Assembly: GCF_003350475.1 (NCBI RefSeq)
Contig: NZ_QQAV01000006.1
Location: 186,001 to 250,000 of the forward strand
Direction: 5' to 3'
Length of the DNA: 64,000 nucleotides
Source of the DNA: Pseudacidovorax intermedius
Lineage (GTDB): Bacteria > Pseudomonadota > Gammaproteobacteria > Burkholderiales > Burkholderiaceae_C
In this document: in pieces, positions 24,654 to 30,045 of the stretch
Layout of the letters: every line of letters begins with the position of its first letter
How positions within the stretch are numbered: position 1 is the stretch's first letter
Translations under genes and position numbers: made by a program
Notes under the pieces: generated by a model
Told to the model about the DNA's origin: nothing
Database searches by the model: none
The model's input: only the letters and a program-made list of their open reading frames with translations

Positions 24654-25091
24654 TCATGCCGCCACGGGCGTGTCCAGCACGGCCTTCACGTTCAGCGTCA
24701 TGTTGTTCTTGACCGCGTCCGCATAGGGACAGATGCCCCGTGCGCGTTCGACCAGGTTGTCGGCCGTGGCCTGATCCAGCGTGCCGGCCATGAACAGCGT
24801 CAGGCTCAGCGCCATGCGGTAGGCGCCCTCGAAGGTGACGTACATCGACAGCGTGGCCTCTGCATAGCAGCCGCGCAGCGGCAGCTTGTCGGCACGGGCG
24901 ATGTGGCGCACGGAATGCTCGAAGCAGGCGGCGAAGGCCCCGGCGAAGAGCTGCTCGGGGTTGGGTGCGCCGCCCGGACCGCCCATCTCGGTGGGCACGG
25001 CCAGCTTGAGCTTGAAGCGGCCGTCCTCGCTCTGCACCTGGCCGCTGCGGCCGCCCTGGGTGAGCATGGTGGTCTTGTAGACGATGTCCAT
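24654..25091 (-). CDS. ohr: Ohr/OsmC-family organic hydroperoxide resistance protein
   Basis: A 145-residue thiol peroxidase of the Ohr type, with redox cysteines in AGAFAACFEHSV (about residue 60) and RGICPYADAV (about 122). It reduces organic peroxides and may protect nitrogenase machinery. It is probably the last gene of the minus-strand accessory operon starting at 30018; the gap to the zinc ribbon gene is 49 bases. Confidence 0.92.
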   Translation of the reverse strand: MDIVYKTTMLTQGGRSGQVQSEDGRFKLKLAVPTEMGGPGGAPNPEQLFAGAFAACFEHSVRHIARADKLPLRGCYAEATLSMYVTFEGAYRMALSLTLFMAGTLDQATADNLVERARGICPYADAVKNNMTLNVKAVLDTPVAA

Positions 25092-25140
25092 GGCCTTGTT
25101 CCTTATCGTCGATGGGAGGCAAGCGCGGGGCGGGGGGCGT

Positions 25141-25386
25141 TCAGCGCTCCTTCAGCAGCTTCTTGCGCTCGGCCGGGCTGAAGTGGCTCAGGTGGCCGGC
25201 CGCCGCGGCCGCGCGGCGGTTGGACATGCGGATGGCCTCGATCTTGCCGGCGGGCGCGATGCGCGAGAGGGCCTTGTCCACGGCGGCGCTTCCGCAGGCA
25301 GGGCAGGCGGGCGGCGTGGCACCGGCGCGCACCAGCGCCTCGAAGCCGTGGCCGCATGCGCTGCAGTGGTAGTCGTAGAGGGGCAT
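25141..25386 (-). CDS. FmdB-type zinc ribbon protein
   Basis: An 81-residue protein starting MPLYDYHCSACGHGFEALV, with two CxxC pairs (CSAC, CPAC) that form a rubredoxin-like zinc ribbon of the FmdB family. The C-terminal half is basic and helical (SPAERKKLLKER). Often called a regulatory protein, but the role is unproven. It lies in the accessory operon between the NifO-like gene and ohr. Confidence 0.9.
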   Translation of the reverse strand: MPLYDYHCSACGHGFEALVRAGATPPACPACGSAAVDKALSRIAPAGKIEAIRMSNRRAAAAAGHLSHFSPAERKKLLKER

Positions 25387-25417
25387 GGGGCGCTCCAGAT
25401 GGCAGAAGGAATGGATC

Positions 25418-25852
25418 TCAGGGCGACGGGGCAGGGCAGCCCCCGGAGGCATGGGGCGCGGCGGCACAGCCTTCCAGGGCCGCGGGCGCCGGGGCGTTGG
25501 GTCCCAGACCCACCCAGTCGTGCACCTGCTGCGTGTCGAAGCCCACCAGGCGGCTGTCGCCCGACTGCATCAGCGGGCGGCGGATGAGCAGCGGCTCGGC
25601 CAGTAGCAGAGCCAGGGCGGCCTCGGCGTCCAGCTGCTCCGGCACCACCTCGCCGGACTTGACGCTCGGCGCCGCACGGTTGAACCACTGGGCCACCGGC
25701 AGCGGCGCCAGGAAGTCCAGCAATGCCTGCGCCGTCCAGGGCCAGGCGAGCAGGTCGCGGGTCTCCAGCGTGTGGCGGGCGCCGCGCAGCAGGGCCTTCT
25801 GCCGCGCATTGCCGCCGCAGCCGGGCTTCTCGTAGAAGACGATGTGGGCCAT
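25418..25852 (-). CDS. NifO-like, ArsC/Spx-fold nitrogenase-associated protein
   Basis: A 144-residue thioredoxin-fold protein of the ArsC/Spx group: MAHIVFYEKPGCGGNARQKALL at the start, RPLMQSGDSRLVGFD late. The usual CxxC is GCGGN, with a single cysteine. Homologues are annotated as nitrogenase-associated protein or NifO. The C-terminal 30 residues contain two further cysteines. ATG 25852 is preferred; a GTG at 25867 is an alternative. Part of the accessory operon. Confidence 0.88.
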   Translation of the reverse strand: MAHIVFYEKPGCGGNARQKALLRGARHTLETRDLLAWPWTAQALLDFLAPLPVAQWFNRAAPSVKSGEVVPEQLDAEAALALLLAEPLLIRRPLMQSGDSRLVGFDTQQVHDWVGLGPNAPAPAALEGCAAAPHASGGCPAPSP

Positions 25853-25873
25853 GGCGTGCTCGTTCACACCTTC

Positions 25874-28406: not shown

Positions 28407-28931
28407 TCAGGCGCTCAGGCGCCGCGCATGACGCAGCAGTTCGCGCGCGCGGTCGGCCGCCATGTCCGCCGCGGCGCGGCCATCGGGCGCGCAGGGTACG
28501 GCGCTGGCGCCCAGCTGGCGCAGCAGGGCCATCAGCTCGGCACGTCCGCTGGCGGCGGCCTGCATCAGGCAGGTGAGGCCGCCGTCGTCCGCATGGTCGA
28601 TGTCGGCCCCGGCCTGCAGCAGCTGCACGATGGTGGCCGGCCAGCCCTGCAGGCAGGCATACCAGAGGGCCGTGCGGCCCTGGTCGTCCTCGGCATCCAC
28701 CGGCACGCCGCGGCCCAGCAATGCGGCGGTGGCCGACGCGTCGCCCTGCCAGGCGGCGCGCATGAGGGCGGTCTCGCCCTCTTCGGCGCGCGCCAAGGGG
28801 CCTGGAAAGCCCTGCTGCGCGAGCCAGTTGGACAGCGCAGCGGCAGACCCGGCAAGCTGCGGATGCAGGCGGGCGATGGGCGCCTCGTCCGCGAGGACAC
28901 AGGGCCCGTGGGCGGGAAGCGGGGCAGGCAT
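28407..28931 (-). CDS. Ankyrin repeat protein
   Basis: A 174-residue protein with about four ankyrin repeats (GETALMRAAWQGDASATAAL, GRTALWYACLQGWPATIVQLL, GGLTCLMQAAASGRAELMAL). It shares the N-terminal WLAQQG-x-x-GP-x-AR block with the rhodanese-ankyrin protein, so the two arose by duplication. No other domain; probably a cytoplasmic adaptor. Just ahead of its end there is a short CAGGCGCT run between it and the SagB-like gene. Confidence 0.9.
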   Translation of the reverse strand: MPAPLPAHGPCVLADEAPIARLHPQLAGSAAALSNWLAQQGFPGPLARAEEGETALMRAAWQGDASATAALLGRGVPVDAEDDQGRTALWYACLQGWPATIVQLLQAGADIDHADDGGLTCLMQAAASGRAELMALLRQLGASAVPCAPDGRAAADMAADRARELLRHARRLSA

Positions 28932-28948
28932 GGCGGCGCCGTGCAGGC

Positions 28949-29557
28949 TCAGACCGGCCGGTTCTCGTTGGGGTTGCGCACCGGCCCCATCAACTCCAGT
29001 CCCTCGGCGTAGGTGATGGTGTCGAAGGTGACGTCGAACTTCAGCGCGGCATCGGCCACGGCATCGAGCTTGCCGGCGGTGTCTTTCTTCTTGAGGTCGC
29101 CCTTCTCCAGGTACAGCAGCTCCAGCATCTCGTTGTAGACCGTGTTCTCGAGGATGGGCAGCACGTAGAACATGGCGCCCTTGTAGGGCACCTGGTATTT
29201 CTTCGACAGGTCGATGTTGTCGCAGAAGAGGAAGTACTTGCCGCCGGCGCTGAGCGTGTCGCCCAGCGTCTCGGCCACGTCCTTGAGCGACTCGAAGGAC
29301 AGCAGCCAGCCGCAGAAGAAGGGCAGGTGCTTGTCGCCGGCGGTGGCCACGGCCATCACCTGGTCGCAGGTGAGCTCGGGCGGGCGGGCCTCGTCGGCCA
29401 GCTTGGCCGAGAAGCGCAGTGCCAGTTCGCCGCGGAAGCCGAAGCGGCCCGGCTTGTGGGTGGGCGCCTTGAGCACCGGGTTCAGCAGGCGGCCTTCGGC
29501 TTCGAGGCGCGCGAAGGCGGTGTCCTGGATCTCGGTCTGGGTGGCCGTGGCGGTCAT
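28949..29557 (-). CDS. Conserved unknown protein, second gene of the operon divergent from nifH
   Basis: A 202-residue soluble protein, not recognised. It starts [20 protein letters not shown]; notable segments are [20 protein letters not shown] and [16 protein letters not shown], with two cysteines and many aromatic residues, and a lysine-rich EKGDLKKKD. No nucleotide or metal motif is clear. Its ATG overlaps the globin stop (ATGA), so the two are co-translated. The position suggests a nitrogenase-linked role, otherwise open. Confidence 0.85.
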
Positions 29558-30018
29558 GGAGCTTCCTTGAGGGTGGTGAGAGAAAGGGGGTGCTGGGGCG
29601 CGGTCCGGGTGTCGGTGTTGCGCATCCAGTCGGCGGTCTTGAAGAAGGCGGCCATCAGCTCGGCCTGCAGCGCGGCGTCGGCATCCACGGCCTGCAGGGC
29701 GGCCTGCATGCAGGCGAGCCAGGCGTCGCGCTCGGCCGCGCCGATGGCGAAGCCGGCGTGCCGCATGCGCAGCCGCGGATGGCCGCGCCGGGCGGAATAG
29801 TCCTTGGGTCCGCCCAGCCATTCGCGCAGGTAGAGCACCAGCACGGCCTTCGTCGCGCTCAGGTCGGGCTCGTGCATGGCGCGGATGCGCTGCGCGCCGG
29901 GCCAGGTGTCCATGTGGCGGTAGAAGGCCTCCACCAGCCGCACGACGGCCGCATCGCCGCCCAGGCGCTCGTAGTGCGTGTTCAGCGGCGATGGGGTCGT
30001 GGCAACGGACGCGGTCAT
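29554..30018 (-). CDS. Truncated haemoglobin (group II-like)
   Basis: A 154-residue truncated globin: [21 protein letters not shown] at the start, [13 protein letters not shown] [30 protein letters not shown] in the middle with the proximal histidine in RMRHAGF, and a TrHb-type W near the end. It could deliver or scavenge oxygen or NO near nitrogenase, as discussed for cyanobacterial GlbN beside nif genes. First gene of the accessory operon. The predicted sigma-54 start (30019) falls next to its ATG. Confidence 0.92.
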
Positions 30019-30030
30019 GCCCTGCGTTCT

Positions 30031-30045
30031 GCAATCGGCGTACCA
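30031..30045 (-). promoter_or_regulatory. Sigma-54 (-24/-12) promoter of the globin/SagB accessory operon
   Basis: The minus strand reads TGGTACGCCGATTGC followed by A, an excellent RpoN match. The predicted start, near 30019, is one base from the annotated ATG, implying a nearly leaderless message or a slightly different start site. Confidence 0.85.

Follow-up and report, generated by a model that had tools for sequence, protein, structure and literature searches.

Which task falls to the eight genes that face nifH in Pseudacidovorax intermedius? They lie in a stretch of 64,000 nucleotides (nt) of contig NZ_QQAV01000006.1 (assembly GCF_003350475.1, positions 186,001 to 250,000), called the window below, which belongs to a genome of 5.98 Mb. 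We read them as a NifA/sigma-54 accessory operon that shares its NifA box with nifH and encodes a mix-and-match set of proteins guarding and tuning nitrogenase, and we give this reading a probability of about 0.6. According to the window's genes and their translations, the array (24654-30018) runs head to tail on the minus strand, with the globin gene nearest to nifH and the Ohr gene farthest from it:

29554..30018, minus strand: truncated haemoglobin, group II-like (PF01152, E 6.4e-35; orthologues annotated as group II)
28949..29557, minus strand: U202, a 202-residue protein without a name (46 invariant columns across 78 sequences)
28407..28931, minus strand: ankyrin-repeat protein (PF12796, Ank_2), in the slot held by draT-draG in other lineages
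26701..28368, minus strand: double nitroreductase-like/SagB-like protein (N half TIGR03605, C half PF00881)
25874..26704, minus strand: rhodanese-ankyrin fusion (PF00581 and PF12796; GlpE-like, below the cut-off of the GlpE model)
25418..25852, minus strand: NifO/DraB-type ArsC-like protein (TIGR01616 'nitrogenase-associated protein', 153.6 bits against a cut-off of 109)
25141..25386, minus strand: FmdB-type zinc ribbon protein (TIGR02605, PF09723)
24654..25091, minus strand: Ohr-family organic hydroperoxide reductase (TIGR03561, 118.5 bits against a cut-off of 88.85)

An earlier note on this DNA, made from its letters alone, had described eight minus-strand genes with overlaps or gaps of at most 50 bases, divergent from nifH. 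This description was confirmed: from globin down to Ohr the junctions measure -4, +17, +38, -4, +21, +31 and +49 nt, and the family libraries match the names that had been given.

Probable control by NifA and sigma-54

Between the globin gene and nifH lie the following elements:

30030..30045, minus strand: -24/-12 (sigma-54) site TGGTACGCCGATTGCA, facing the operon (11/12 scored positions; predicted transcription start near 30019)
30158..30173, no strand assigned: NifA upstream activator sequence TGT-N10-ACA (exact match)
30268..30283, plus strand: weaker -24/-12 site TGGCATGGAAGCTGCG, facing nifH (9/12; nifH ATG at 30424, leader about 130 nt)

Sigma-54 sites were scored against TGGCACGN4TTGCW at 12 positions. 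The near-perfect -24/-12 site that had been noticed ahead of the operon is thus present at 30045-30030 with 11/12, and it is accompanied by the second mark of the NifA/sigma-54 regulon, an upstream TGT-N10-ACA. The NifA box is approximately 113-128 base pairs (bp) from the operon-facing site and 95-110 bp from the nifH-facing one, distances that make it usable by both promoters. A single 11/12 site is weak proof, because six sites of at least 11/12 were seen in the 64-kb window against 0.9 expected in Markov-1 sequence; here conservation decides. The nifH start was available in 70 of 80 related loci, whose intergenes were surveyed, and the other ten loci were left out. An operon-facing site of at least 10/12 occurs in 67/70 intergenes (at least 11/12 in 46/70) and a perfect NifA box in 60/70; the best nifH-facing site likewise reaches at least 10/12 in 60/70 and lies about 350 nt from nifH in L022, L031, and L035. 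Mononucleotide shuffles gave 0.019 (10/12), 0.004 (11/12), and 0.071 (box) per intergene, although the 70 loci share kinship and therefore do not count as that many independent trials. The ten loci that lack a perfect NifA box all belong to one clade of the nif tree, with Paraburkholderia nodosa and P. atlantica. No second operon-facing site of at least 10/12 was found within the operon and no sigma-70-like promoter in 24300-30500.

In Paraburkholderia phymatum, the genes for U202, an ankyrin protein, and the zinc ribbon protein follow nifH (Bphy_7753) on the opposite strand, behind an 11/12 site located 72 nt from the annotated ATG. RNA-seq of nodules formed by a nifA mutant and by the wild type yielded log2 fold changes of -11.54 for Bphy_7752 (U202), -7.11 for Bphy_7751 (ankyrin), and -7.72 for Bphy_7750 (zinc ribbon), a drop of about 140- to 3000-fold; for comparison, the same table lists -7.40 for nifH and -10.05 for nifD, and in its sorted form U202 is the final numeric row ahead of the rows marked NA (PMC8305402, Table 1). 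The lack of a NifA-dependent transcript, named in the earlier note as evidence that would count against it, does not apply to these three orthologues, because PMC8305402 shows NifA dependence there. Control by RpoN and NifA is thus well supported by the conserved sites together with the response of the P. phymatum U202, ankyrin, and zinc ribbon genes. The NifA regulon of P. phymatum therefore holds strongly dependent orthologues of three window genes, but these stand in PMC8305402 as table rows, without a unit, a name, or a function. The surrounding cluster Bphy_7728-7755 is induced in nodules, the main text of that study giving no values for the three genes (PMC5748707), and the genes with an RpoN motif that are named in PMC5979394 include nifH, nifE, nifV, and nifB, with the U202, ankyrin, and zinc ribbon genes not seen among them. 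Judged from arrangement and promoters, the eight genes of the window are probably activated along with nifH.

Gene order and membership in related genomes

A comparison with the genomes of relatives, proposed in the earlier note as a check, revealed a nearly constant gene order with optional members. Enough flanking DNA was available for 62/80 loci, in which matches were chained with gaps below 700 nt, and nifH is divergent in 59 of these 62. The order is globin, U202, ankyrin or draT-draG, nitroreductase, rhodanese-ankyrin, nifO, fmdB, ohr, and cowN, with losses; exceptions are two Thiobacillus loci, where U202 is ahead of globin, and G317, where cowN is ahead of fmdB. Besides U202, the 62 loci contain fmdB (48), nifO (37), globin (36), ankyrin (27), draT and draG (22 each), rhodanese-ankyrin (20), nitroreductase and ohr (13 each), and cowN (6). 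PF07357 confirmed the DraT label for the gene in the matching slot of genomes from the family sample; the sequences next to it and at the far end are taken by us to be DraG and CowN, respectively. In the two Thiobacillus loci (L082, L083) the U202-globin pair is followed by a Rieske-type or superoxide dismutase-like gene (labels by eye), and no nifH occurs in the stretch covered.

Related sets exist elsewhere. Methylococcus sp. EFPC2 (Gammaproteobacteria) carries, behind an 11/12 site and facing nifH, genes for a response regulator, a globin, U202, a Rieske protein, a hypothetical protein, an ArsC-like protein, a nitroreductase, GlpE, and an ankyrin protein. At L101, nifO, globin, U202, and a draT-like gene face nifH, and on two Bradyrhizobium plasmids U202 faces an Fe-S assembly gene and nifU/nifS, with an adjoining annotated Rieske gene in one of them.

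U202 and its association with nitrogenase

U202 gave no match in Pfam, NCBIfam, or PHROGs, and a profile search of the sequences in the PDB returned one chance-level match (E 0.18) and no credible relative. An assignment through individual family members was rejected, as these yielded five scattered Pfam hits, each in at most 2/25 members (best E 7.5e-4, one member), and three NCBIfam hits in 1/25 members each. The C-terminal tail of the protein is strongly conserved, and U202 is 99% identical in the Pseudacidovorax loci L006 and L007.

Scattered occurrence in non-diazotrophs had also been named as evidence that would count against the operon; for U202, the member to which our result applies, occurrence in the samples was restricted to diazotrophs. 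In the family sample (n = 399), U202 was found in 31 genomes and nifD over the cut-off in 30. The mismatches are G052, which has nifD at the edge of a contig and lacks U202, and two genomes that have U202 without a full nifD: G008, with a completeness of 65%, and G317, in which a contig edge truncates nifD. Neither gene occurs in the sample's five other members of the window's genus. The class sample (n = 274) contained seven U202 carriers and 25 genomes with nifD over the cut-off, which include six of the seven carriers, and in the seventh, G636, nifD is split across two contigs. In the phylum sample (n = 229), U202 occurred in ten genomes, and nifD over the cut-off was present in 9/9 carriers besides the window genome, the nifD search having covered these nine and not the other 219 genomes. 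Across the three samples no U202 carrier clearly lacks nitrogenase, each having a full or partial nifD. Ten plasmid records contain U202, and nif genes adjoin it in 6/6 of those examined. Distant matches of approximately 25-30% identity lie near nif genes at five of the six loci examined (L097, L098, L113, L114, L119); at the sixth, L099, which is one contig of a fragmented genome, no nif genes were seen.

L086 and L087 each have an additional, divergent U202-like gene, not close to any recognised nif genes, which is without the ADEARPPE core and whose match stops at residue 190 of 202. The idea that divergent U202 paralogues (G121, G210) accompany another nitrogenase was discarded, no nitrogenase gene being recognised among their neighbours.

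A candidate leaderless globin message

Transcription was predicted to start 12 nt past the C of the -12 GC, which is the standard spacing, with an uncertainty of about 1-2 nt. The globin ATG of the window lies 1 nt past this position, and in 37 of 38 loci with globin as the first gene (the exception is L085) an in-frame ATG is found 1-4 nt from the predicted start. By comparison, where U202 comes first, the earliest codon that could serve as a start lies at a median of 48 nt (32/33 loci with a site), and in the two cases with a distance of at most 5 nt this codon is a GTG that precedes a conserved ATG. In a further 17 Burkholderiales loci that begin with globin, whose species partly overlap those of the first set, the ATG lies at 1-3 nt in 16 cases, the remaining one being L144; in the two annotated loci among these, L112 and L148, the deposited globin start is the same ATG. 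L101 and L111, which lie outside and do not have globin as the first gene, do not show an ATG at the predicted start. The position of the globin ATG suggests a leaderless message.

Against this stands that 17 of the 37 loci have another start codon 11-34 nt inward and therefore room for an ordinary leader; only 20/38 loci have no other ATG, GTG, or TTG ahead of the globin domain. It is also possible that globin has an unrecognised upstream promoter. Leaderless transcripts are known in rhizobia, where the motif reported upstream is sigma-70-like (PMC4842269, PMC3616915), and no report of a leaderless globin under sigma-54/NifA was found in the parts of the literature that the search covered.

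Gene products and operon boundaries

Four of the family assignments pass curated NCBIfam cut-offs (TIGR03605, TIGR01616, TIGR02605, and TIGR03561), the N half of the SagB-like protein only just (81.6 against 78.4 bits). The nearest solved chain for the globin is 2XYK, a 2-on-2 haemoglobin; the His and Trp stretches are kept in the alignment and presumably have their customary roles. The SagB-like protein is related to 3EO7, a solved putative nitroreductase (511 residues, no known function) that covers its N half and part of its C half. A hexamer repeat at 27470-27510 encodes a Ser-Thr run that links the two halves and may differ in length by strain. Maturation of ribosomally synthesized and post-translationally modified peptides (SagB azoline-peptide type) was considered and rejected: the SagB-type domain is present, but Pfam and NCBIfam recognised no partner cyclodehydratase of the YcaO type among the eight operon proteins. 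In the rhodanese, the loop CYHGRAS, read from the translation, retains its cysteine, which we take to be the active-site residue of this motif.

No terminator-like hairpin was detected in 24300-30500, and the operon therefore ends without a recognisable terminator; Rfam families were likewise absent from 24400-30500. By eye, a plus-strand reading frame at 24538-24654 is similar to the beginning of a 113-residue L085 protein; it seems curtailed at its junction with the end of ohr, which would suit a recombination event that joined ohr there. The next minus-strand gene past a small convergent one (23528-24313) has its own 11/12 -24/-12 site, TGGCACATGGGTTGCA, at 24160 on the minus strand. By eye its product is molybdopterin-oxidoreductase-like; it has no NCBIfam match, and relatives occur in L006 and L015.

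Relation to described systems

As a unit, the operon was not found described in the open-access literature searched, subscription papers lying outside its scope. The cyanoglobin gene glbN encodes a truncated globin amid the nif genes of Nostoc, in another organism and cluster context. In Pseudomonas stutzeri A1501, PST1302-1306 encode NifB, an arsenate-reductase-related (NifO-like) protein, NifQ, a GlpE rhodanese, and a glutaredoxin-related protein and are all induced during nitrogen fixation, but these five table rows include no globin, U202, nitroreductase, or ankyrin protein (PMC2820453). The draTGB operon of Azospirillum brasilense is similar in that nifO/draB is part of an operon tied to nitrogenase regulation (PMC5249018), and relatives of the window carry draT, draG, and, farther on, nifO in a single operon. 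Of the draTGB genes, the window operon has draB/nifO (TIGR01616 over the cut-off) and neither draT nor draG; it additionally encodes globin, U202, ankyrin, nitroreductase, FmdB, and Ohr, and it is divergent from nifH. The earlier statement that the set had not been described as a unit thus holds for the open literature, but parts of it were already in print, namely nifO next to draTG (draTGB) and the grouping of a NifO-like gene with nifQ and a rhodanese gene (PST1303-1305). NifO affects nitrate-related behaviour in Azotobacter vinelandii, and in Rhodospirillum rubrum a homologue seems to act as a regulator of DraG (PMC5249018). The same source states that nifO neighbourhoods lack a clear pattern; in the Burkholderiales surveyed here such a pattern does appear.

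Proposed function and alternative explanations

If the array is an accessory operon for guarding and tuning nitrogenase, one NifA box would fire it and nifH together. Globins and Ohr act on O2/nitric oxide (NO) and organic peroxides, respectively, and DraT/DraG switch the Fe protein. The globin of the window would clear O2 or NO and its Ohr organic peroxides. Redox or activity control would fall to NifO/DraB, nitroreductase, rhodanese, and the ankyrin proteins, at the position that the DraT/DraG switch occupies in other lineages. U202 would be the core member, which most likely binds nitrogenase or acts with the globin (and, in other lineages, with a Rieske protein); a protein that binds nitrogenase or globin would agree with its conserved tail and its NifA dependence. 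The operon would then serve protection after assembly and activity control, with optional modules. We infer the single transcript in the window strain, every biochemical role, and the joint action of the products. Between the two tasks that the earlier note had left side by side, protection is favoured because draT-draG and cowN-like genes fill slots of the same operon in relatives, and sulfur delivery is less favoured because the rhodanese-ankyrin gene is present in 20/62 loci.

Several observations weigh against this interpretation. The P. phymatum operon comprises three of the eight genes and has neither globin nor a perfect NifA box. Members are optional, ohr and nitroreductase occurring in 13/62 loci each, and therefore no single pathway requires all eight; both genes are missing from the locus of the close Pseudacidovorax relative L007 and can thus be lost within the genus. 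Only 7/26 class-sample genomes with nifD carry U202, which nitrogen fixation therefore does not require. The co-occurrence of U202 and nifD would also follow from linkage to nif by itself, so that their travelling together speaks of linkage and not of mechanism. Furthermore, we know of no operon member with a measured function in a nif setting.

An alternative that we consider unlikely is a worn-down switch operon of the draTGB type, in which an ancestor had draT-draG-nifO beside nifH, draTG disappeared from the lineage of the window, and the vacant slot went to the ankyrin gene, whose product may regulate the Fe protein in their stead. The NifO-like nature of DraB in the draTGB operon agrees with it (PMC5249018), as does the distribution of the genes: among 80 loci, ankyrin is present in 35, draT-draG in 27, neither in 18, and both in none. 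A search with PF07357 gave no match to DraT in the window genome and was positive in 23/32 family genomes with U202 or nifD, and genome-wide DraT was found in 0/34 ankyrin-bearing genomes and in 5/14 genomes with neither gene at the locus (L072 left out); a Hydrogenophaga draG-like query, confined to the window operon, found no draG there. On a NifDKH tree of 62 loci and the window, however, ankyrin changes four times and draTG five times with only four independent pairs, and the exclusion is therefore not significant beyond shared descent. The non-co-occurrence of the ankyrin gene and DraT is new here and the pattern is clear, yet descent can account for most of it. In addition, the tree gives no direction of change (loss or gain), and globin, Ohr, and U202 would be left unexplained.

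We regard it as distinctly improbable that the operon serves sulfur or metal delivery, with rhodanese, NifO, and zinc ribbon supplying sulfur or steering molybdenum (Mo) and the other products in support. The cysteine retained in the rhodanese loop would suit such a role, as would the connection, reported in PMC5249018, between NifO and the allocation of Mo in A. vinelandii and the adjoining genes for a GlpE rhodanese, NifQ, and a NifO-like protein in P. stutzeri (PMC2820453), but the rhodanese-ankyrin gene and nifO are confined to 20 and 37 of the 62 loci, and the core is U202, often with globin, to which relatives add draTG and cowN-like genes. The many partial versions of the operon could also reflect a loose collection of genes that ride a strong nif promoter without acting jointly. 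This appears very improbable to us, since the order is nearly constant over Burkholderiales genera and Methylococcus again has a related set but arranged differently, which the common descent of one block alone would not give.

Beyond the guarding and tuning operon, a bolder proposal is that U202 founds a new nitrogenase-dedicated guard family working with a truncated globin made from a leaderless mRNA, and that the ankyrin protein replaces DraT/DraG in DraT-less lineages. We put this forward tentatively, as a possible if doubtful extension. Sigma-54/NifA would in this case start transcription at the globin start codon, leading to a translation route that needs no leader.

Implications for nitrogen fixation

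U202 is a neighbour of nifH in many Burkholderiales genera, and its NifA response exceeds those of nifH and nifD in the published P. phymatum set (PMC8305402); no tested function of it was found in the literature searched. The predicted leaderless globin message, if true, would tie sigma-54 control to non-canonical translation in a conserved manner. Should U202 shield nitrogenase from oxygen, nitric oxide, or peroxides, it would be a candidate for a missing part in the transfer of nitrogen fixation to aerobic hosts.

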